Made by a program: the position numbers and the translations under genes. Positions 22,781 through 34,137 of a stretch of DNA of 64,000 nt are shown here, in pieces. Source of the stretch: Desulfovibrio aminophilus DSM 12254 (GTDB lineage: Bacteria > Desulfobacterota > Desulfovibrionia > Desulfovibrionales > Desulfovibrionaceae). Location: positions 1 through 64,000 of the forward strand of contig NZ_AUMA01000016.1 of assembly GCF_000422565.1 (NCBI RefSeq), given 5' to 3'. Below the pieces are notes generated by a model. The model was given only the letters and a program-made list of their open reading frames with translations. It had not been told where the DNA came from and did not search any database. Numbering within the stretch: position 1 is the first letter of the stretch; each line of letters begins with the position of its first letter.

Positions 22781-23413
22781 CTACTTTTCGTTCAGCTTGA
22801 TTTCGAAGGCCACGGCGTAGAGATGGTGGAAGAAATCCACGTACTCCACGGGAATGTGGTCCGGCACCTGAATGCGCGAAGGCGCGTAGTTGATGATGCC
22901 CTTGATGCCGCCGTCCACCAAGTAGTTGGCGGCGCGCTGGGCCCGCTCCGGTGGAGTGGTGATGATGCCGATCTCCAGGCCGTATTCGCGGATTTTCTCC
23001 TTGGTCTTGCGGGTGCAGATGACTTCCAGTCCCTCCACCAGCTCACCGATCTTGTAGGGGTCGCAGTCGAAGGCCACCTTGATGGCGAAGCCCTTGCGGC
23101 TGAATTCGCGGTGGCGCAGCAGCGCTCGGCCCAGATTGCCCACCCCCACCAGGGCGCAGTTCCAGATGCGGTCGATGCCCAGGGACTGCTTGATGGAGGT
23201 GATGAGTTCCTGCACGTAGTAGCCCACGCCGCGCACCCCGAACTCGCCGAAGTAAGCAAGATCCTTGCGGATCTGTGACGAGTTCACGGAGCAGGCCTGA
23301 GCCAGGGCCTCGGACGAGATGATTTCCACGCCGTCGTGCTTCAGGTTTTCCAGCACCTGAATGTAAACGGCTAGGCGGCCAATGGTGGCCTTGGGGATGT
23401 GTTCGCTTTTCAC
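22781..23413 (-). CDS. rex: Redox-sensing transcriptional repressor Rex
   Basis: A 210-residue Rex protein. The N-terminal winged helix (about 1-80) includes 'SSQIRKDLAYFGEFGVRGVGY'. The Rossmann domain has 'GVGNLGRALL', and the C-terminal swapped helix includes 'FHHLYAVAFE'. Rex senses the NADH/NAD+ ratio and represses energy-metabolism genes. It lies directly downstream of the Fo genes on the same strand, separated by a hairpin, and candidate Rex sites precede both atpZ and rex. Confidence 0.96.
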   Translation of the reverse strand: MKSEHIPKATIGRLAVYIQVLENLKHDGVEIISSEALAQACSVNSSQIRKDLAYFGEFGVRGVGYYVQELITSIKQSLGIDRIWNCALVGVGNLGRALLRHREFSRKGFAIKVAFDCDPYKIGELVEGLEVICTRKTKEKIREYGLEIGIITTPPERAQRAANYLVDGGIKGIINYAPSRIQVPDHIPVEYVDFFHHLYAVAFEIKLNEK

Positions 23414-23432
23414 GTGCCGCGGATGTCCGGAG

Positions 23433-23452
23433 TTATGTGAATTTTAGGACAA
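23433..23452 (-). promoter_or_regulatory. Weak candidate Rex operator upstream of rex
   Basis: On the minus strand TTGTCCTAAAATTCACATAA keeps the right half-site TTCACA and the first four bases of the left half-site TTGTGAA. It lies 20 bases before the rex start. The match is partial, so autoregulation is only suggested. Confidence 0.25.
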
Positions 23453-23464
23453 GGCCTGGGGCGA

Positions 23465-23492
23465 AAGGGGGGAGGCGCGAACCTCCCCCCTT
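23465..23492. terminator. Hairpin between atpE and rex
   Basis: The perfect 11-bp stem AAGGGGGGAGG / CCTCCCCCCTT has a 6-base loop. There is no long T-run. It may partly terminate or process the atp transcript before rex. Confidence 0.5.
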
Positions 23493-23504
23493 GAGATGCG
23501 GATA

Positions 23505-23828
23505 CTAGGCGCCCAGGGGCTTCACGAAGAGCAGGATCAGGTTCACGACCAGGGCGTAAATGGCCAGGGACTCGATGAAGGCCAGACCGAGGATGAGCAT
23601 GACCTGGATCTTGCCGCTGGCCTCGGGGTTGCGGGCGGTGCCTTCGCAGGCGCCCTTCAGGCCCAGGCCCTGACCGATGCCGCAGAGACCGGCGGCGAAG
23701 CCCATGCCGCAGGCAGTGGCCCAAGCGGCCACGGGGCCGACGGCGGGAGCGCCGTCAGCGGCGAAGGCCAGACCGGCGGACAGAACCATGGCCAGGGTGC
23801 TCAGAACGATGGTCGTCACTTTACGCAT
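23505..23828 (-). CDS. atpE: F0F1 ATP synthase subunit c
   Basis: A 107-residue proteolipid. A signal-like N-terminal helix ('[20 protein letters not shown]') precedes the usual two-helix hairpin. Helix 1 contains '[14 protein letters not shown]', the loop is 'ARNPEASG', and helix 2 carries the ion-binding Glu in '[10 protein letters not shown]'. Gln in helix 1 plus Glu-Ser and a following Tyr in helix 2 match most of the Na+-binding signature of known Na+ c-rings, except Leu where Thr is usual. ATG at 23828 follows GGAGG. Confidence 0.93.
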
Positions 23829-23881
23829 GAGAGTTTCCTCCAAACAGTTATTGTTTCGGCCGAAAGGCCATTTCCCCCAAT

Positions 23882-24571
23882 CTAGTGCGCGTGATCCATG
23901 GATCCCTTCAGGTAGATGGTCGCCAGCATGAAGAAGATGAAAGCCTGAATGGTCTTGCCCAGGATGAACAGGAAGTACATGGGCAGGGTGCCGACCACCG
24001 GAGCCAGGGTGAAGAGAAGCACGAGCACGATTTCCTCACCGCGGATGTTGCCGAAGAGTCGCAGAGTGAGCGACAGCGGCCGGGCGAGGTGGCTGACGAT
24101 CTCGAGCACGAGCATGAGCGGGGCCAGGAAGGCCACCGGGCCCATGAAGTGTTTGATGTAGCCGAAGCCCCATTTCTTGATGCCGATATAGTGGTAGTAA
24201 AGGAAGACGAAAATGGCCATGGCGGCGTTGGTGTTGACGTTCGCCGTGGGAGCGTCGCACCCCGGAATGAGGCCGAGGTAGTTCATGGTCAGGATGAAGA
24301 CGAAGATCGTGATGAGCACGGGGAAGACCTTGCGGCCGCCCTCGCCGAGGTTGGCGACCACGAAGTCCTCCAACCCTCCGACGATGACCTCGAAGAGGTT
24401 CTGCAACCCCCCCGGCACTAGGCTCACCCGGCTGCGGATGAGCAGACCGCAGGTGAAGAGGATGGCCATGGCCAACCACGTGTACCAGACGTGAAGCGGA
24501 ATGGTCGTGCCCAGAGCCTTGTTCAGGATCTCCATGTACAAAAGCGGATGTGCCAATCCACCAGCAGCCAT
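23882..24571 (-). CDS. atpB: F0F1 ATP synthase subunit a
   Basis: A 229-residue membrane subunit with the essential Arg in '[14 protein letters not shown]', plus '[19 protein letters not shown]' and the C-terminal '[20 protein letters not shown]'. It forms the ion half-channels beside the c-ring. It lies between atpI and atpE; the F1 and b-subunit genes are not in this window, as is usual when Fo genes are split off in deltaproteobacteria. Confidence 0.97.
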
Positions 24572-24576
24572 ACTCC

Positions 24577-24990
24577 CTACGCCTCCTTCGCTTTCTGCCC
24601 CATGCCCGTGACGCCCCAGATGACGGCGCCCGCGATCACGGTGGATAGTCCCGTCAAAAGCCCGCCCACAGGCGCCTCAAGCCAGCCCACCAGGACCGCC
24701 AGACACACGCCCGTCAGGATGAACCGTCCGTAAAACCGCAGCACAAGGGCAGTCGCCCCCCCCTTGCGCACAAACATCAACGCCTTCGCCGCCTTGGCCA
24801 GATGCCAGAAGTTGAAAAGCATCAGGCCCGCTCCGGCGGCGCAGGAAAACCCCCAAGCTGAAAACCCCGTGACCACCAGCGCCGCGACCGAAACGGCCAG
24901 GGCCGTGAGGATCACGATTCGCACGAGCCGCCGAGTGCCGGGGTTGTCGAACCCCCGGGCGGCCAGGGCGCGGTCAAGACGCCGGATCAT
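24577..24990 (-). CDS. atpI: ATP synthase subunit I (AtpI)
   Basis: A 137-residue, four-helix membrane protein of the ATP-synt_I family. It is short, hydrophobic, and lies before atpB as expected. AtpI assists c-ring assembly. Its ATG overlaps the atpZ stop as ATGA (24987-24990), so the two are translationally coupled. Confidence 0.85.
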
Positions 24991-25247
24991 GGCTTGCGCT
25001 CCCCGCCGCCCTCGCGCTCGCGTCTCTCATTCTCCTGCATCCTCTGGGCATCCCGGTACACGTTCATGAACCCGGCGACAATACCCAAGATGAGAAAGAT
25101 GAGCAGAAGCCACGGGTCGGTGCCCAGCCACCTGTCGAGGAGCCAACCGATGGCGAACCCGACGAAGGTGCCCGATACGAGGTGCAGCCCCATCGTGCCC
25201 GCCGTGGACAAGAGCCCCCCGGCGTCTTTCAGAAAATCAAGCTTCAA
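24987..25247 (-). CDS. atpZ: AtpZ/AtpQ-like ATP synthase accessory protein
   Basis: An 86-residue protein with two membrane helices ('GLHLVSGTFVGFAIGWLLD' and 'WLLLIFLILGIVAGFMNVY') and a charged C-terminal tail, the AtpZ/AtpQ form that precedes atpI in many atp operons. TTG at 25247 is preferred because GGTGGG lies upstream and the protein then starts 'MKLDFLKDAGG'. The frame is open to a TTG at 25301, which has no ribosome binding site. Confidence 0.75.
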   Translation of the reverse strand: MKLDFLKDAGGLLSTAGTMGLHLVSGTFVGFAIGWLLDRWLGTDPWLLLIFLILGIVAGFMNVYRDAQRMQENERREREGGGERKP

Positions 25248-25309
25248 AAGATCCCACCGTTCCTCGCGCCTTGGCCCGACGCTGGGCGGACCGTAACGCA
25301 AAACAACGG

Positions 25310-25366: not shown

Positions 25367-25440
25367 GGCGGTTGGCGAAAAAACCCCGTTTTCTCGGCTC
25401 ATCGGCATGAGGTCCGCTCAGGGGGGCATGGACGCGCTCA

Positions 25441-25468
25441 GGCCGGCCGGGCTCACGCCCGGCCGGCC
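25441..25468. terminator. GC-rich hairpin between the TauE operon and the Fo operon
   Basis: The perfect 12-bp stem GGCCGGCCGGGC / GCCCGGCCGGCC with loop TCAC lies 60 bases beyond the end of the 267-residue gene. No T-run follows, so the terminator call is tentative. Confidence 0.4.
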
Positions 25469-25528
25469 CTCGTGATGGAACGCCGCGTTCCAGGGCTCCC
25501 TCTTCCCCGAAACCCGGCTACGGAGAAT

Positions 25529-26332
25529 TCAGCAATGCGCGCCCCCCACGCTCACGAAGCAGTCCGGGCTCGCGCCTTCCAGCAGGCCCGCCTTGGCCAC
25601 GGCGGCGGTTGCGCGCACCTCGGTGACCGTGGCCGGGCCAAGGGTCCGCATGTCCGCCCCCAGAAGCTCCACTTCGGCACCGGGCGCCAGTCCGTGCCTG
25701 CTTCCCAGTCCGAATTCAAACTCCAGCCCCTCGGGCAGGCGCTTGAACTTGAAGACCTCGGCCATGCCCTCCTCCGCCAACCGTCGTTCCAGGGAAATGG
25801 AGAGCAGAAAGACCAGACCGAAGCAGGCCAGACCGAGGACGACCATGCCCCCGGCGAGAGGATAGGCCGTGACTCCGAGCAGACGTTCGGTGAAATAGGG
25901 CGAACCGGCCCGCAGGGCGGCCGCGTCCGAGTAGACCCGCACGGTGTAGCTCAGGGTGTTGATCTTGCCCGTGTCGTCGGGAGGAAAACTCAGAACCAGG
26001 GCATGATCTCCGGCGGCGAGGCCCGGTTCGGTCTCCACGGCCCCGGCGAAGAGTCGCCCGCCCATCATGTAGCCGGGCATGACCTGGTCCACGCGCAGCC
26101 GCACCCCGGGAGGGGCCGACTGCACGTAGACCTTGTCGGGCGAGTCCACGTACATGGGTACGTTGGCGGAGATGGGCAGGCTCTGCCCCGCGAGGCAGGG
26201 AAACACGCCCCTTTCCATCCGCAGTCCCGAAGTCAGGCCGTCCAGGGCGAAGAGCAGGGCCAGGGCCATGAGCAGGCCGCCGGCCAGCCCCACCCGCTTG
26301 CGCAACGCAAGCGTCCGAGCGGCCCGGCTCAT
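25529..26332 (-). CDS. Two-helix membrane protein of the TauE operon, function unknown
   Basis: A 267-residue protein with one N-terminal helix (about 14-33), an extracytoplasmic beta-rich region of about 120 residues, a second helix ('AGGMVVLGLACFGLVFLLSI', about 160-180) and a C-terminal cytoplasmic domain ending in '...GGAHC'. No family is recognised. It overlaps the preceding 77-residue gene by ATGA and is the last gene of the sigma-54 operon. The bitopic layout would suit a subunit linking the permease to an extracytoplasmic partner (inference). Confidence 0.65.
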   Translation of the reverse strand: MSRAARTLALRKRVGLAGGLLMALALLFALDGLTSGLRMERGVFPCLAGQSLPISANVPMYVDSPDKVYVQSAPPGVRLRVDQVMPGYMMGGRLFAGAVETEPGLAAGDHALVLSFPPDDTGKINTLSYTVRVYSDAAALRAGSPYFTERLLGVTAYPLAGGMVVLGLACFGLVFLLSISLERRLAEEGMAEVFKFKRLPEGLEFEFGLGSRHGLAPGAEVELLGADMRTLGPATVTEVRATAAVAKAGLLEGASPDCFVSVGGAHC

Positions 26333-26562
26333 TGTTCCGCCTGAGCCGGCTGCTTGCGGTCGCGCAGGACGCGTATGAGGATGATCGCCCCGACGATGGT
26401 CGGCAGAGCCAGAGGCAGGAACGCCTTCATGAACACCGGGGTCAGATCCCCGGGGTTCTTCGCGGCCACGGACATGGCGTAGCAGATTTCCGCGAGAACC
26501 AGGATGTCGGCCAGGATGACGATGATCTTTTGGCTCAACTTGAGGGAGTTGCGCTGTTCCAT
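26329..26562 (-). CDS. Small two-helix membrane protein
   Basis: A 77-residue protein with two hydrophobic helices ('IIVILADILVLAEICYAMSVA' in part, and 'FLPLALPTIVGAIILIRVL') and a basic, Gln-rich tail. It is translationally coupled to the next gene. It lies in the TauE operon and probably acts as a small subunit; no motif is recognised. Confidence 0.65.
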   Translation of the reverse strand: MEQRNSLKLSQKIIVILADILVLAEICYAMSVAAKNPGDLTPVFMKAFLPLALPTIVGAIILIRVLRDRKQPAQAEQ

Positions 26563-26607
26563 CGTTCTTCTCCGTTTTTTTTCCGGGGCTCCATCGACCC
26601 GTTTGGG

Positions 26608-26640
26608 ACCGGCCCGCCTTGAGGGCGCGGGCCGATCCCG
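26608..26640 (-). terminator. Hairpin inside the TauE operon
   Basis: The stem GGGATCGGCCCGC / GCGGGCCGGTCCC with one mismatch lies between the lipoprotein gene and the 77-residue gene, 46 bases before the latter. It has no T-run and may lower expression of the last two genes or stabilise the upstream mRNA. Confidence 0.35.
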
Positions 26641-26678
26641 TGGGGGCGATGGGCCTGATGAACAGGCCCGGTAGGGGC

Positions 26679-27278
26679 TTACTTCTTGAAGATGTTCGTC
26701 TTGCTCACGTTCATGAACCGCAGGGCCTTGCCCTCTTCCTTATAGTAGATGCGCACGATGTCGCCCGAGTCCCAGGTGGACGCCGGCAGGGCCATGTACT
26801 CGTCCGGCAGGGCCAGGGTCACCAGGGTCTTCCAGCGGCTGGAGTAGACCGTGAGGGTCTTCTTGTCCTTGTCGATGATCGGGAACTTCTTGTCCACGAC
26901 CCGGGCGTCGTCCTTGGACACGCCCTTCTGCTTGTCCAGGACCTGGAACTGCACGGTCTTCAGGGAGCCGGAAGCCTCATCGAAGTAGATGATCTTGTCG
27001 GTCTCCGGGTCCATGAGCATCCGCATGCCGGCCTTGGGCTCGGGCCCCATCTCCATGGGGTCCGCGGGCAGCGTGTAGACCACGGGCGGCAGCTTGTCGA
27101 AGACCTGGTTTTCCGTGCCATAGTGGTGCGCGCTCTCCAGCACCAGCGTCACGGACTTCTTTTCCTTGTCATACTTGATGACTTTGCCCTGGGCCACCTT
27201 GCCGTATTCGCTGTTGCAGCCTGCCACGGCGAAGGCCATCAGGGCCAGGATGGCGAGCCACGTTCTCTTCATGTTCAT
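26679..27278 (-). CDS. DUF4881-type lipoprotein
   Basis: A 199-residue lipoprotein. The signal peptide ends at lipobox 'AVAGC' (Cys21). The mature part is beta-rich and repeats short stretches of the type 'GKVIKYDKEKKSVTLVLES' and 'IIDKDKKTLTVYS', as in DUF4881. ATG at 27278 has AAGGAG eight bases upstream. It is the third gene of the sigma-54 operon. The family has no known activity; a role beside the permease at the outer face of the membrane is inferred. Confidence 0.8.
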   Translation of the reverse strand: MNMKRTWLAILALMAFAVAGCNSEYGKVAQGKVIKYDKEKKSVTLVLESAHHYGTENQVFDKLPPVVYTLPADPMEMGPEPKAGMRMLMDPETDKIIYFDEASGSLKTVQFQVLDKQKGVSKDDARVVDKKFPIIDKDKKTLTVYSSRWKTLVTLALPDEYMALPASTWDSGDIVRIYYKEEGKALRFMNVSKTNIFKK

Positions 27279-27313
27279 GTCATGTTCTCCTTGCTTCGTT
27301 GGCGCTACGCGAC

Positions 27314-28369
27314 TTAGGCCTTGGCCTTCTTTTCCGCGATTTCCTTGGCCGCTCCCTTGACCATGCCGGTGGCGATGTAGAGAGCCATGACCGTGACCAC
27401 GCCGAGCACCACCACGGTGGCCGCGCCGTTGCAGAGGGCCTTCAGGTTGGGCACCCAGCCGCCGATGAGCTTCAGCACGATGGAGGTGAGGCAGCCGATG
27501 ACGGCCCAGCCGAAGGCGATGCGGATGCCGTAACCCTTGATGTACTTGGTCGCAACGGTGCCAATCTGAGCGCCGATGGCCGCGCCGCAGAGCATGATGA
27601 CGGCGGCCACCAGCTCGGTGCGTCCCTTGTAGGTGAAGGTCGCCGCGCCGTAGAGGCCGGAGATCATGACTTCGAAGAGGTCGGTGCCGACGGCCACGTG
27701 GGTCGGGCAGCCCATGAGGTAGATGAGCGAGGGCATGCGGATAAGGCCGCCGCCGATGCCCAGGATGCCCGCCAGGAAGCCGGTGGCGAAGCTGATGAAG
27801 ATCGGCAGCCACATGGAGCAGTAGATGCCGGAGACGTTCAGGTGGACCATGGGCGGAATCTTGATCTTGTGCAGGGTCTTGTGCCACTCGAGGCCCACGG
27901 CCTTATGGTCGATCTCCTTGCCCGCGGCCAGGGCGGCGCGGTCCTTGGCCTTGCGCTTGGCAACATCGCTGAAGACCATCCAGGTGATGAACAGCAGCAA
28001 GACCACGTAGAGCAGGCGCACGACCAGGTCGATGTTGCCGATGCGCTCCAGGCTCATGAGGATCTGGGCGCCCATTTCCATGCCCACGACCGTGCCGATG
28101 AGCATGATGAGGCCGAGCTTGTAGTCCACGTTGCCGAACTTGCCGTGCCGCATGGTCGAAATGAGGGACTTGCCGGCCATGTGGGCGATGTCGGTGCCCA
28201 CGGCGAAGGCCATGGGAAAGCCCAGGATGTTCAGGCCGGGCGTGATCATCCACGCGCCGCCCATGCCGAAGAAGCCGCCGATGACGCCCATGCCGAGACC
28301 CAGGATGATGAGGCCCGGCCAAAAAAGTTTCACGCCCGCGATGGGCATGAGCATATACATCCATTCCAT
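27314..28369 (-). CDS. TauE/SafE-family permease (sulfite/sulfonate export type)
   Basis: A 351-residue permease with two TauE/SafE half-repeats: 'GMGVIGGFFGMGGAWMITPGL' near the N-terminus and 'GFLAGILGIGGGLIRMPSL' near the middle, separated by a charged cytoplasmic loop of about 60 residues. Relatives move sulfite, sulfoacetate or other organosulfur anions. In a sulfate reducer, sulfite or a sulfonate is a sensible substrate, but direction and substrate are not fixed by sequence. It is the second gene of the sigma-54 operon. Confidence 0.88.
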   Translation of the reverse strand: MEWMYMLMPIAGVKLFWPGLIILGLGMGVIGGFFGMGGAWMITPGLNILGFPMAFAVGTDIAHMAGKSLISTMRHGKFGNVDYKLGLIMLIGTVVGMEMGAQILMSLERIGNIDLVVRLLYVVLLLFITWMVFSDVAKRKAKDRAALAAGKEIDHKAVGLEWHKTLHKIKIPPMVHLNVSGIYCSMWLPIFISFATGFLAGILGIGGGLIRMPSLIYLMGCPTHVAVGTDLFEVMISGLYGAATFTYKGRTELVAAVIMLCGAAIGAQIGTVATKYIKGYGIRIAFGWAVIGCLTSIVLKLIGGWVPNLKALCNGAATVVVLGVVTVMALYIATGMVKGAAKEIAEKKAKA

Positions 28370-28423
28370 GACGATCCTCCGCGTTGAGTATCCGTTCCCG
28401 CTGTTCGTCGGCGCGGGACGCGA

Positions 28424-28717
28424 TTAATGCTCCGCCACGTCGCGCTTGGTCAGGTCGATGCCGATGTGGTTCATGACCAGGTCCGTGAGCAGGCCCAGGA
28501 TCATGCCCAAAACCGGGATGAGGACAATCGTCAGAATCGTGAACTGCAGGTGGCTTTCATTGTAGAGGTTGGACCACCAAGCCAGGATGCCGGTCAGATC
28601 CCGGGTGTCCGAGACGATGACGATCTGCGCGGCCTTTCCGCCGGCGGCCATCGCCGTGCCGCACAGGGCCAGCAACGCGGCCGGTACGGCCAGAAGGCTC
28701 TTCCATAATTTCCGCAT
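28424..28717 (-). CDS. Small exported/membrane protein leading the TauE operon
   Basis: A 97-residue protein with a cleavable-looking signal peptide ('LLAVPAALLALCGTAMAAGG'), a short extracytoplasmic segment containing 'ILAWWSNLYNES', one membrane helix ('LQFTILTIVLIPVLGMILGLL') and an acidic tail. ATG at 28717 has GGAGGAAA upstream, a very strong site. It is the first gene after the -24/-12 promoter. No family is recognised; a small permease subunit is the most likely role. Confidence 0.75.
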   Translation of the reverse strand: MRKLWKSLLAVPAALLALCGTAMAAGGKAAQIVIVSDTRDLTGILAWWSNLYNESHLQFTILTIVLIPVLGMILGLLTDLVMNHIGIDLTKRDVAEH

Positions 28718-28840
28718 ACCGTTTCCTCCTTTCCATTCCGCCAAACAGTTTCGTGTGCCTCTGTCACTCTCCACAGCCGTTTCCGGCGCAGGCCGTCGGC
28801 CCTTCCGATGCGGCCCATGTGATCTGCGCGTCTTTTTACT

Positions 28841-28857
28841 AGCAACCCTTGTGCCAA
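28841..28857 (-). promoter_or_regulatory. Sigma-54 (-24/-12) promoter of the TauE operon
   Basis: On the minus strand TGGCAC-AAGGG-TTGCT matches the sigma-54 consensus TGGCAC-N5-TTGCW in every fixed position, with exactly ten bases between GG and GC. It lies about 125 bases before the first gene. The divergent gene encodes a sigma-54 activator. Confidence 0.85.
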
Positions 28858-28909: not shown

Positions 28910-28970
28910 TCGCGCATGCGGCTTTTGTCAGCCCTTGCGCGAACACCCCGGGCATGCTAATTGCGCAGAA
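28910..28970. promoter_or_regulatory. Candidate enhancer sites for the sigma-54 activator
   Basis: Three related octamers occur: ATGCGCGA (28917-28910, minus), TTGCGCGA (28935-28942, plus) and TTGCGCAG (28961-28968, plus). The same motif recurs just after the activator gene (31499-31547). Site identity is inferred from repetition and position. Confidence 0.4.
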
Positions 28971-29025: not shown

Positions 29026-31488
29026 ATGGCGGCCTTCGATCCCCTGCCCCAGGGCAACACGCTTTCCAGGTTCCGGCTCGGCCCCCTGCGGACCTGGCAC
29101 CTCCAGCGCAAGCTCATGCTGGCCGTCATCCCCACGGTTGCCCTTCTGCTCATCATCTCGGGATATCTCGTGAACCTGGTGGCCGTGCGCTACATCAACA
29201 CGGCCCTGGAACGGACCGTGAAGATCCAGGTTCTGCACATGGCCCACATCATGGAAATCGTTCTGAACCGGGCCAAGGAGGATCTCCTGGTCCTTTCCCG
29301 CGACCCCCTGGACGGGCCGAGCCTGCGGCGCTTTCTCCAGTCCAAGCGCGACTTCGGGGGCGGCCGCTACCGTGAACTGATCTTCTCCCCCGATGGCGGC
29401 GAGGAGATCGGTTTCGCGGACAATGACGCGGAGATCGTCCCCCTGCCCTCGAGCGCGGTCGAAAACGCCCGGCCGGTGCTGGCCGGGGTGGTGGAGAAGG
29501 CCCGAGAGATGGAGCCTGGGGCCGTCACCCTGTCGGACTTCGTGAGCATCACCTATCCGCGCATCGCCGGTCGGGAGGTCTTCGCCCCGAACACCGTGGT
29601 CCTGCGCATGGCCGCGCCGGTCTATGGACCAGACGGCAAGCGCCGGGGGGTGCTCGTCCTGTCCCTGGACGCCCGGCGCCTGCGCGACGTGCTCTCGCTC
29701 ATCACCTCGCCCGCCTCGCCGCTGTTCGCCTTCCCGCGCACCTCGGAACGCCGCCTGGCCTATTTCTTCGACGAACGAGGCTGGATTCTCTTCCAATCCG
29801 AGAACATGGAGAGCGCGGACAAGTCCCTGACCACGGACAACGCCCGGGTGGGCTTCGAGGGAGACCACGGGAAATTCGGGCTGGACCAAGCCTTCCGGCC
29901 CTTCCCCGAGCACTCGGTCTACTGGGAGGCCGTGGCAGCCGTACAGAAGGGCGAGCGCGGCCTGTTCAACGTGGACGCCCGCTACGAGTCGACCCTGGAC
30001 CTCACGGACCAGACCTTCATGGGCTTCGCCCCGCTGCGCTTCACAGAGCGCCCCGGCGGTCCCGCGCGCATCCTCGGCGGGGTCATCTTCGCCGACCGCA
30101 GCCGTCTGATCCTCAACGCCGAGATCCGCCAGTTCAACACCGTGGCCGCCATCGTGGTGATCTCCATGCTTCTGGTCACGGCGGTGATCTACGTTTTCGG
30201 CCGGGGAATCATGCAGCCCGTGCGCAAGCTGGCCAAGGCCGTCGACGAGGCCTTGGGCAAGCCCGAACTGCGCGAGATCCAGCTCCCGGACACCGACCGG
30301 GAGACCACGGCCCTGCGCCTGGCCGTGAACCGGCTCATCATGTCGCTCAAGACCCAGCACAACGAGTTGCGGCTCAAGGACGAGTTCCTCAAGAGCGTGC
30401 GCCAGAGGGAGAAGGTGGCCCTGGATTACGACGTGCAGGGAGACGACGAGCACGAGAAGTTCGTGGACATCCTCGGCCTGTCTCCGGCCATGAAGGCTCT
30501 CAAGACCCAGATCGTCAAGGCGGCCGCCGTGGACGCCGACGTTCTCGTGGTCGGGGAGACGGGCACGGGCAAGGAGCTCACGGCCAACGCCATCCACCAC
30601 CAGAGCATGCGCCGCACCGGCCCCTTCGTGTCCATCAACTGCGGCTCCCTGGACGAGAACCTGCTCATGGACTCCCTTTTCGGCCACGTGAAGGGCGCGT
30701 TCACCGAGGCCAAGACCGACCGCAAGGGGGCCTTCCTGGCCGCGGACGGCGGAACGCTCTTCCTGGACGAGATCGGCACGGCCTCGCCCAAGGTCCAGCT
30801 GGCTCTGCTGCGCTCCCTTTCCTCCCGCGTCATCCAGCCCCTGGGCTGCGACCTGGAGATCCCCTTCAACACCCGGATCATCGCGGCCACCAACGCCGAC
30901 CTGGAGGGGGCCGTGCGCGAGGGCTCGTTCCGCGAGGATCTGCTCTACCGGCTCAAGGTCATCACCATCCACACCCCGGCCCTGCGCAACCGGCCCATCG
31001 ACATCCCGCTCCTGGCCAACTATTTCATGAACGAGGCGGCCGAGGCCATGAACAAGCCGGGGACCGGCCTTTCCCGGGGGGCGCTGGAGAAGCTCAAGTC
31101 CCATGCCTGGCCCGGCAACGTCCGTGAACTCAAGAACTGCATCACCCGGGCCGTGGCCATGACCGAGGACCAAGTGCTCCAGGCCGAGGAGCTGCTCTTC
31201 GAGATGCAGTCCTCCGAGCACCCCCTGGCCCAGCTCCGCGATTTCCGGGTCACTCCCGCACCCGGCGCGCCGCCCCCTCAGCCGCCGGCCGATGACGGAC
31301 TCAACCCCCGCCAGGCCAAGGCCCTGCCGCGCATCCGGGAGCTGGGCCGCATCAGCCGGGCGGATTATGAGGAACTGGTCGGCGGCGTGGCCTCGCGCAC
31401 GGCCCAGGGGGATCTGCAGGATCTCGTGACCAAGGGACTCCTGCGCAAAGAGGGCAAGGGCCCCGCAACGCGCTATCGTCCCGCATGA
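29026..31488 (+). CDS. Membrane-bound sigma-54 activator with winged-helix C-terminus
   Basis: An 820-residue protein. Two membrane helices (about 30-55 and 370-392) flank a large extracytoplasmic Cache-like sensor. A HAMP-like linker follows, then an AAA+ sigma-54 activator domain (about 485-725): Walker A 'GETGTGKELTANAIH', Walker B 'GGTLFLDEIG', and the sigma-54 contact loop 'GAFTEA' instead of GAFTGA. There is no Fis helix-turn-helix; the last 60 residues ('RISRADYEELVGGVASRTAQ', then 'DLQDLVTKGLLRKEGKG') form a winged helix. ATG at 29026 has GGGAGG upstream. It probably senses an extracytoplasmic ligand and drives the TauE operon. Confidence 0.88.
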   Translation: MAAFDPLPQGNTLSRFRLGPLRTWHLQRKLMLAVIPTVALLLIISGYLVNLVAVRYINTALERTVKIQVLHMAHIMEIVLNRAKEDLLVLSRDPLDGPSLRRFLQSKRDFGGGRYRELIFSPDGGEEIGFADNDAEIVPLPSSAVENARPVLAGVVEKAREMEPGAVTLSDFVSITYPRIAGREVFAPNTVVLRMAAPVYGPDGKRRGVLVLSLDARRLRDVLSLITSPASPLFAFPRTSERRLAYFFDERGWILFQSENMESADKSLTTDNARVGFEGDHGKFGLDQAFRPFPEHSVYWEAVAAVQKGERGLFNVDARYESTLDLTDQTFMGFAPLRFTERPGGPARILGGVIFADRSRLILNAEIRQFNTVAAIVVISMLLVTAVIYVFGRGIMQPVRKLAKAVDEALGKPELREIQLPDTDRETTALRLAVNRLIMSLKTQHNELRLKDEFLKSVRQREKVALDYDVQGDDEHEKFVDILGLSPAMKALKTQIVKAAAVDADVLVVGETGTGKELTANAIHHQSMRRTGPFVSINCGSLDENLLMDSLFGHVKGAFTEAKTDRKGAFLAADGGTLFLDEIGTASPKVQLALLRSLSSRVIQPLGCDLEIPFNTRIIAATNADLEGAVREGSFREDLLYRLKVITIHTPALRNRPIDIPLLANYFMNEAAEAMNKPGTGLSRGALEKLKSHAWPGNVRELKNCITRAVAMTEDQVLQAEELLFEMQSSEHPLAQLRDFRVTPAPGAPPPQPPADDGLNPRQAKALPRIRELGRISRADYEELVGGVASRTAQGDLQDLVTKGLLRKEGKGPATRYRPA

Positions 31489-31547: not shown

Positions 31548-31698
31548 CATTTCCATCGCGGAGCCGCCCCTCCCGGCCCAATAGGGGATCTCCGCCGGGC
31601 GAGCCTCTGACCAGGACTAGTGACAAGCTGCGGCAAACGCCGTATGATTGAAATCTCGGGACCGATCCCGGAAATCAGCACGGGGTTCGATCCACCGT

Positions 31699-34137
31699 AT
31701 GTCGAAAAAATCCCATAATCCCATATCGTTGAAGCCAGAGAAGCTGCGCGCGCGGCTGACCCCCGAGCGTGTGCCCTGGGAAGACAGCCGGGCCATCCCC
31801 CGGCGCAACGGCCACGCCCTGTTCCAGCCCCGGGCGATCCAAGCCCTCGGCATGGCTCTGCGCATCCCCGCCCGGGAGTACAACGTCTACGTCTGCGGCG
31901 ACGCCAACATGGGCCGGACGTACTTCATCCAGCATTTCCTGGCGCCGGAGGCGGCCAAGGCCCCGACCCCGCGTGACTGGGTCTATCTCTACAACTTCGA
32001 CGACCCCGACCGGCCCGTGGCCGTGGGCCTGCCGGCCGGACGCGGCCGGGCCTTCAAGACGGCCATGACCAAGGCCATGAGCGCGGTGCGCGGGGACATC
32101 CCCAACCACTTCGACCAGGAGTCCTTCCACAAGCAGCGCGAAGGACTGGTCAAGTCCTACAACGAGAAACGCGAGGCCCTGTTCACCGAGATGGAGAACG
32201 AGGCCGGCCGCCAGAACTTCAGCCTGGCCATGGACGAGTCCGGGGCCCTGACCCTGACACCGGTGATCAACGGCAAGCCCATCGCGGACGACGAATACGA
32301 AGCCCTGGAGGCCGGGACGCGCAAGCGCCTCAAATCCCGGGGCGACGAGTTGCTCATCCGCATCAGCCGCTATCTCCGGCGCATGAGCCAGAACGAGCAG
32401 AATCTGCGCCGCGAGGAGACGGAACTGCAACGGGCCACGGCCAAGGCCGTGATCGAGGAGCACCTCGCGCCTGCGCGCGCGGGTTTCGGCGACGACCCGA
32501 AGCTGGCGCGCTATCTCGACGCCGTGGAGGCGGACATCCTCCAGAACGTGGACCTGTTCCTGCCGCGCGAACCGCAGACCCAACAGCAGAGCGCCCAGCT
32601 CCACGCCCACGCCCACGGCCAGGAGCCGCAGCCCGCGGACGACGTCTTCTACCGCTACGAGGTCAACCTCTTCGTGGACAACAGCCGGCAGCAGGGCGCG
32701 CCGGTGGTCATCGAAAACCACCCCACCCCCTTCAACCTGCTGGGCAGCATCGAGCGCGAGGCCGAGATGGGCGCGCTCTACACCGACTTCACCCTCATCC
32801 GCGCCGGGGCCGTGCACCGCGCCAACCAGGGATTCCTGATCCTGAACATGGAAGACCTGCTGGCCTATCCCGCCTCCTGGGAAGGGCTGCTGCGGGCCCT
32901 GCGCCTGGGCGTCTCGCGCATCGAGGATCCCGTGGACCCCGAGCAGGTCCGGGCGCGGACCATCGAGCCCGAGCCCATCCCCCTGAACCTGAAGATCCTC
33001 CTGGTGGGCACGGACGAGACCTACGAGCAACTGCTCTACAGCGACGACCGCTTCCAGAAGTACTTCAAGCTGAAGGCCCATCTCCAGCCCACCGCGCCGC
33101 GCACGGCCCAGAACATCCGTAATTATCTCTACACCCTGGGCCGCATCGTGCGCGAGGCGGACCTGCCGCCGTTCTCCCGCGACGCCCTGGCCGGGCTGGT
33201 GGACCAGGCCGGACGCCTGGCCGAGGACCAGAAGAAACTCTCCCTGGCCTTCCCCCTGGTGCGCGAGCGGATGATCGAGGCCGCGGCCATCGCCCGCATG
33301 CGCGGCGACGAGGTGGTTTCGGCCGGGCACTTGGCCGAGGCCGTGGCGGCCCGCGACTTCCGCGCCAACCTCTTCGAAGAGGAGTTCATGGCCGACTACG
33401 ACCGGGAGGTCATCAAGGTGGCCACCGGCGGCTCGGCCGTGGGCCGGGCCAACGGCCTTTCCGTGACCCTCTTCGGCGACTATGAATTCGGGCTGCCGCA
33501 CCAGATTTCCTGCACCGTGGGCGTGGGCCACGGCGGCATCCTGGACCTGGAGCGCGAGGCCCAGCTCGGCGGCCCCATCCACACCAAGGGCATGATGATC
33601 ATCAAGAGCTACCTGCTCGGGCTCTTCGCCGTGGACAAGCCCCTCGTGCTCAGCGGCAACCTCTGCTTCGAGCAGAGCTACGCGGGCATCGAGGGCGACT
33701 CGGCCTCGGGCGCGGAGCTGGCGGCCCTGCTCTCGGCCCTTTCGGGAGCGCCCATCGACCTGTCCTACGCCTTCACCGGCGCGGTGAGCCAGTCCGGCGC
33801 GATCATGGCCGTCGGCGGAGTCAACCGCAAAATCGAAGGATTCTTCGAGGTCTGCCGCCGCCGGGGCCTCACCGGCAGACAGGGCGTGATCCTGCCCGCG
33901 GACAACGTGGTCAATCTCATGCTCAAGGACGAGATCCTGGACGCCGTGGGCAATGGCCTGTTCCACATCCATCCCGTGCGTTCCATCGAGGAGGCCCTCC
34001 ACCTGCTCACCGGCGTGCCCGCCGGACGACGCGGCAAGGGCGGCCGCTTCCCCAAGGGTTCGCTCTACGACATGGTGGACCGGCGGCTGGCGGAGCTGTG
34101 CCGCCTGGCGCGCAAGGCCGACAGGCCCGGGAGGTAG
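31699..34137 (+). CDS. Lon-like ATP-dependent protease (AAA_32/S16 type)
   Basis: An 812-residue protein. An N-terminal P-loop region carries 'GDANMGRTYF' with Arg at the Walker A Lys position, then a long helical insertion and 'ANQGFLILNMEDLL'. The C-terminal peptidase S16 domain has catalytic Ser in 'EGDSASGAEL' and catalytic Lys in 'GGVNRKIEGF'. It belongs to the COG1067-like group rather than classical Lon, which has an N-terminal substrate-binding domain. ATG at 31699 is chosen because the family homology starts here; a TTG at 31648 is possible, and neither has a clear ribosome binding site. Confidence 0.88.
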   Translation: MSKKSHNPISLKPEKLRARLTPERVPWEDSRAIPRRNGHALFQPRAIQALGMALRIPAREYNVYVCGDANMGRTYFIQHFLAPEAAKAPTPRDWVYLYNFDDPDRPVAVGLPAGRGRAFKTAMTKAMSAVRGDIPNHFDQESFHKQREGLVKSYNEKREALFTEMENEAGRQNFSLAMDESGALTLTPVINGKPIADDEYEALEAGTRKRLKSRGDELLIRISRYLRRMSQNEQNLRREETELQRATAKAVIEEHLAPARAGFGDDPKLARYLDAVEADILQNVDLFLPREPQTQQQSAQLHAHAHGQEPQPADDVFYRYEVNLFVDNSRQQGAPVVIENHPTPFNLLGSIEREAEMGALYTDFTLIRAGAVHRANQGFLILNMEDLLAYPASWEGLLRALRLGVSRIEDPVDPEQVRARTIEPEPIPLNLKILLVGTDETYEQLLYSDDRFQKYFKLKAHLQPTAPRTAQNIRNYLYTLGRIVREADLPPFSRDALAGLVDQAGRLAEDQKKLSLAFPLVRERMIEAAAIARMRGDEVVSAGHLAEAVAARDFRANLFEEEFMADYDREVIKVATGGSAVGRANGLSVTLFGDYEFGLPHQISCTVGVGHGGILDLEREAQLGGPIHTKGMMIIKSYLLGLFAVDKPLVLSGNLCFEQSYAGIEGDSASGAELAALLSALSGAPIDLSYAFTGAVSQSGAIMAVGGVNRKIEGFFEVCRRRGLTGRQGVILPADNVVNLMLKDEILDAVGNGLFHIHPVRSIEEALHLLTGVPAGRRGKGGRFPKGSLYDMVDRRLAELCRLARKADRPGR

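Follow-up and report, generated by a model that had tools for sequence, protein, structure and literature searches.

In Desulfovibrio vulgaris, DVU0151 has been described as a single-component sigma-54-dependent activator with the tip loop GAFSEA, regulating the operon DVU0150-DVU0146 with a role in "transmembrane transport" (Kazakov et al. 2015, PMC4641369, Table 1). In the part of that study available to us, DVU0151 is the only one of 37 activators lacking an annotated Fis-type domain, some of its orthologs match a winged-helix model, and its N-terminal region is suggested to hold an unknown sensing domain. The same source gives GAFSEA as a tolerated tip-loop variant and states that substrate data are absent for TSUP/PSE transporters; in its main text, as far as available, the words membrane-bound, TauE and DUF4881 do not occur. 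Beyond that paper, a literature search on these genes and families, with most subscription journals outside its range, returned one apparently unrelated Enterococcus genome paper. Here we analyse a related locus in a 64 kb stretch of Desulfovibrio aminophilus DSM 12254 (contig NZ_AUMA01000016.1, positions 1 to 64,000; the window), in which five minus-strand genes lie 3' of a -24/-12 promoter element and a sigma-54 activator gene lies divergently on the plus strand. We read it as a sigma-54-dependent operon encoding a transport complex of the TSUP type, for which the divergent gene would provide a dedicated membrane activator with a double-Cache (dCache) sensor, and put the probability of this reading at roughly two in three.

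The locus shares with DVU0151/DVU0150-DVU0146 a divergent single-component activator without a Fis domain, a sigma-54 promoter and a five-gene operon. The product of its first gene belongs to the NCBIfam DVU0150 family, so that the locus is the D. aminophilus ortholog of that system: its DVU0150-family gene is part of a sigma-54 operon, and a non-Fis activator is encoded divergently from it. The other four genes would then correspond one by one to DVU0149-DVU0146. The regulation of the operon is thus not new, having already been predicted for the D. vulgaris orthologs. The features of the locus are as follows.

28841..28856, minus strand: -24/-12 element TGGCAC-N5-TTGCT, an exact match, kept in orthologous loci
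28424..28717, minus strand: gene for a DVU0150-family small protein of 98 amino acids (NF040783, E 5.8e-38)
27314..28369, minus strand: gene for a TauE/SafE (TSUP) permease of 351 amino acids (PF01925, E 6.4e-43)
26679..27278, minus strand: gene for a DUF4881 lipoprotein of 199 amino acids with lipobox Cys21 (PF16222, E 2.9e-62)
26329..26562, minus strand: gene for a membrane protein of 77 amino acids without a family match
25529..26332, minus strand: gene for a 267-amino-acid protein (transmembrane helix, periplasmic Ig-like sandwich, transmembrane helix, cytoplasmic beta domain; sidedness inferred)
28910..28966, no strand assigned: candidate activator-binding region, with TTGCGC at 28935-28940 and 28961-28966 and TCGCGCAT at 28910-28917
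29026..31488, plus strand: divergent sigma-54 activator gene (PF00158, E 7.6e-60; transmembrane helix, predicted periplasmic dCache, transmembrane helix, AAA+ domain with GAFTEA, C-terminal winged-helix-turn-helix-like region)
25420..25500, minus strand: GC-rich hairpin 3' of the last gene (-50.9 kcal/mol, z -3.42)

On the minus strand, the promoter element reads TGGCACAAGGGTTGC from 28856 to 28842 and continues with T at 28841, to give TGGCACAAGGGTTGCT as a whole; it carries TGGCAC-N5-TTGC with the invariant GG and GC at the correct spacing. The initial annotation had placed this element, correctly spaced, upstream of five same-strand genes, and the match is indeed exact, with a start at 28856 instead of the 28857 it gave. 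The window contains a single exact match, and matches with up to two mismatches number 56 against 71 expected from shuffling, a comparison that is no test of exact matches. Genome-wide (3.4 Mb), there are 12 exact sites versus 2 for a reversed control pattern. To score conservation, we searched the 700 bp in front of the DVU0150-family gene in the window and in 39 of the 40 loci fetched from the class Desulfovibrionia, leaving out L072, whose contig ends within the TSUP gene; expectations came from 30 first-order-Markov resamplings. When one mismatch is allowed, 34 of these 40 loci, which are not independent because the genomes are related, have a site, versus a mean of 1.5 expected (largest 5); 22 have an exact site versus 0.03 expected. 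The sigma-54 promoter proposed from the window alone is thereby supported across orthologous loci. In nine class loci the element precedes a universal stress protein (Usp) gene that lies before the operon. An rpoN gene is found elsewhere in the host genome.

Between the activator gene and the promoter lie short repeats, of which the two TTGCGC copies in the window are 26 bp apart. Of 34 loci, 30 have GCGCAA/TTGCGC upstream of the -24 element, where 11.6 would be expected, and 17 have TCGCGCAA, against an expectation of 0.8; one row of these counts (L068) used a site inside the TSUP gene. We consider these repeats putative binding sites of the activator.

The divergent gene had been taken for a sigma-54 activator, and its AAA+ sigma-54 interaction domain (PF00158) agrees with this assignment. 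The longest frame begins at 28954, and translation probably starts at its residue 25. Residues 25-486, aligned with 39 orthologs, gave a model with a predicted local distance difference test (pLDDT) score of 82.8, in which a long helix is followed by a two-module domain, then by a second helix in the membrane and a helical linker. When compared using Foldseek and VIA-align, the N-terminal model matches chemoreceptor dCache sensor domains with Z of ~18-20 over ~235-250 residues; model and fold matches together place a double-Cache fold between two transmembrane helices. We predict from this that the activator's N-terminus is a double-Cache sensor that lies in the periplasm and is anchored in the membrane. 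Because sequence identity to the solved domains is ~8-15 %, its ligand cannot be inferred from them. The alignment contains ten invariant positions, mostly in the membrane-proximal half. In place of the canonical GAFTGA loop, the window activator has GAFTEA, and GAF[ST]EA is found in 35 of 40 activators (GAFSEA 18, GAFTEA 17), with GAYTEA, GAHSEA, GAFTDS, GAFSDA and GAFTGA occurring once each. Its Pfam hits include no Fis-type helix-turn-helix at the C-terminus, where a DIP2311-like_C match falls below cut-off. The C-terminal motif RTA-x2-DL is present in 40 of 40 activators, a pattern chosen after reading the sequences; a stricter winged-helix-turn-helix expression matched 15 of the 40. A membrane-anchored sigma-54 activator would be an uncommon design, and the papers listed by one literature search included no described example. 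Such a protein would have to act on promoter DNA from the membrane.

The operon itself is built around the permease, which scores 147.6 bits against PF01925 (gathering cut-off 32.6). Among its 71 aligned relatives, Cys293 is kept in 71, Cys221 in 70 and Cys184 in 68. Cys21 of the DUF4881 lipoprotein shows no variation across 34 aligned sequences. The 98-residue protein, as read from its sequence, has an apparent signal sequence and a hydrophobic segment, and its similarity to DUF1634 is weak (E 0.02, below cut-off). No family was found for the 77-residue membrane protein or the 267-residue protein in Pfam and NCBIfam profile searches, nor for the latter in a family search over 67 members. The genes of these two proteins share four bases. 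The AlphaFold2 model of the 267-residue protein reaches a pLDDT of 94.9, and its fold matches are weak, domain by domain, to common Ig-like and beta-barrel arrangements; we therefore draw no function from them. Downstream, the GC-rich hairpin is a possible operon end, although an intrinsic-terminator scan made no call there.

The gene set is conserved well beyond the window. We counted gene clusters anywhere in the fetched stretches of 41 class loci and 37 loci outside the class, using a greedy frame choice that misses some genes, such as DUF4881 in the window. The TSUP permease is present in 41/41 class loci and 35/37 outside, the DVU0150 family in 37/41 and 33/37, DUF4881 in 38/41 and 36/37, and the 267-residue family in 35/41 and 31/37; the 77-residue family is found in 31/41 and 9/37. 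This co-occurrence, kept across many genera, agrees with the earlier description of a permease with several small partner subunits. An activator with RTA-x2-DL accompanies 34 of 41 class loci and 6 of 37 outside, where several loci have histidine kinase and receiver genes beside the operon in the activator's place. The named conserved neighbours are the universal stress protein (13/41 class, 26/37 outside), a PPDK_N/PEP-utiliser protein (29/41 and 27/37) and signalling proteins. A representative of the PPDK-like proteins has the ATP-binding and mobile domains, with no match to the C-terminal PEP/pyruvate-binding domain. Six loci from outside the class (L114, L124, L126, L130, L133 and L140) have another TSUP gene near the module, along with a 239-residue family that lacks a Pfam match.

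By genome, DUF4881 occurs in 140 of 348 class genomes and the DVU0150 family in 155 of 348; across the phylum, DUF4881 occurs in 54 of 395. A plasmid search for DUF4881 gave no match. One DUF4881 gene (L162) lies on a contig labelled as a Nitrospira metagenome-assembled genome, which may reflect horizontal transfer or mis-binning. In a statistic that ignores the kinship of the genomes, dsrA exceeds its cut-off in 49 of 52 DUF4881 genomes versus 139 of 343 others (Fisher p 2e-14), the 52 leaving out two weak DUF4881 matches (G462 and G638). The three counted without dsrA are G219, G507 and G137, the last having a dsrA match (E 3.7e-106) counted under the cut-off. The association ties the module to dissimilatory sulfate reducers and names no substrate.

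The host genome contains ten TSUP transporters. A second, paralogous system of activator, DVU0150-family protein and TSUP permease lies on contig C23 (~380500-391900; loci L148, L147 and L003). This system has its own -24/-12 site, TGGCATGGAGGTTGC, and a divergent activator designed as in the window (GAFTEA, RTAIYDL). Its TSUP permease is 61 % identical to that of the window, a short lipoprotein resembles, by reading, part of DUF4881, and PPDK-like genes lie on either side. Similar second systems were seen in other fetched genomes. Further exact -24/-12 sites adjoin other TSUP genes at C7:144932-145470 and C23:261331-261345.

Taken together, the data are consistent with the following mechanism. 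The periplasmic dCache domain of the membrane-seated activator would sense a small ligand and pass the signal across the membrane to the AAA+ domain. Holding the upstream GCGCAA repeats via its non-Fis winged-helix region, the activator would hydrolyse ATP and so drive opening by sigma-54 polymerase at the -24/-12 element. Expression of the operon would then supply the TSUP permease, the lipoprotein in the periplasm, both small membrane proteins and the Ig-like protein with two transmembrane helices, which may form a transport complex. More tentatively, at a little under even odds, these proteins could represent a class of membrane-embedded one-component activators (periplasmic dCache, GAF[ST]EA AAA+ domain, winged helix) controlling a TSUP-lipoprotein module that is a near-signature of dissimilatory sulfate reducers. 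In that view the module would occur in duplicate in some genomes, would count stress proteins and phosphotransferase-like proteins among its partners, and would have had its activator exchanged for two-component regulators from one lineage to another.

Several observations weigh against this picture, besides the disregard of kinship in the dsrA statistic. The match of the activator to PF02743 (dCache_1) is weak and below the Pfam cut-off. Loci in which no one-component activator was seen next to the operon keep the site as well: 10 of the 15 that have kinase/receiver genes and 18 of the 23 that have neither kind of regulator, compared to 32 of 38 with the activator; the site is therefore independent of the one-component activator type. 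That count scanned from 450 bp ahead of the first called frame to 200 bp inside it and dropped L142 and L145 (no TSUP or DUF4881 frame); since this region differs from the 700 bp used above, some loci, for example L074 and L078, score differently. Three class loci without the activator give a mixed result: L049 has no site, L053 a site with two mismatches and L057 one with a single mismatch.

The promoter match could be a chance hexamer pair, the operon using another promoter, but conservation in 34 of 40 loci, the genome-wide excess over the reversed control and the separate site of the second system make this highly improbable, and we rejected it. The initial annotation favoured an organosulfur or sulfite substrate, which finds no support here: TauE/SafE is a Pfam family name only, the NCBIfam hits of the permease are far below cut-off, and a sequence search for solved-structure relatives gave none that was convincing (E 0.5). 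The idea of a transporter that moves sulfite or organosulfonates (taurine, isethionate, sulfoacetate) into or out of the cell and is induced by the organosulfur compound draws on that name and on the association with dsrA-bearing genomes. We consider it unlikely, as TSUP proteins are functionally broad, with substrates in sulfate reducers not established according to the accessible parts of PMC5840216 and PMC4641369. Moreover, no sulfonate gene is among the named conserved neighbour clusters, although sulfonate-catabolism genes were not searched for directly, and the occurrence of DUF4881 in many sulfate-reducer families fits a general role over a niche substrate.

It is conceivable, if still doubtful, that the module instead answers the energy or redox state of the cell, for example sulfate loss or syntrophic growth, with the TSUP permease carrying a carboxylate or another non-sulfur anion and the stress and PPDK-like proteins forming part of the response. 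The frequency of Usp and PPDK-like genes around the module argues for this, but neither adjoins the window locus. Plugge et al., in 2010, reportedly found that a cluster of five lipoprotein and membrane genes goes down as D. vulgaris moves from syntrophic to sulfidogenic growth; that cluster may be this operon, though we do not count it as evidence. Within our preferred reading of a sensor-controlled TSUP operon, our best guess is a small anion, with a sulfur oxyanion the likeliest single class and a carboxylate or an energy-state role close behind; the handling of this anion may change with the respiratory state of sulfate reducers. These organisms have many TSUP transporters, and given the dedicated sensor, the promoter and the conserved partners, the inducer of this system would point to its substrate.

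The surroundings of the locus are as follows. On the 3' side of the activator, an 829-residue frame at 31648-34137 reads as what we take to be a Lon-type protease. The region 22781-25301, which adjoins the operon, holds what are presumably ATP synthase F0 subunits and a Rex-type redox repressor, and these neighbours are conserved in L039 and L040.

Compared with known systems, the permease belongs with the TSUP/TauE-SafE family (PF01925), here in the company of a DVU0150-family protein, DUF4881 and the 267-residue protein. The predicted sensor fold resembles the dCache domains of chemoreceptors and sensor kinases (TlpQ, TlpA, Tlp1 and TlpC structures), whereas in the window it shares a polypeptide with a sigma-54 AAA+ domain and a region for DNA binding. 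With enhancer-binding proteins of the NtrC/NifA type, the activator has the AAA+ sigma-54 interaction domain in common; it differs from them in having GAF[ST]EA rather than GAFTGA, a non-Fis C-terminus and an apparent membrane anchor. Its closest counterpart, DVU0151, has GAFSEA where the window activator has GAFTEA, and the species differ. To that description our analysis makes modest additions: an activator with a predicted membrane-bound dCache sensor, a paralogous copy of the system, its partner genes and the association with dsrA.

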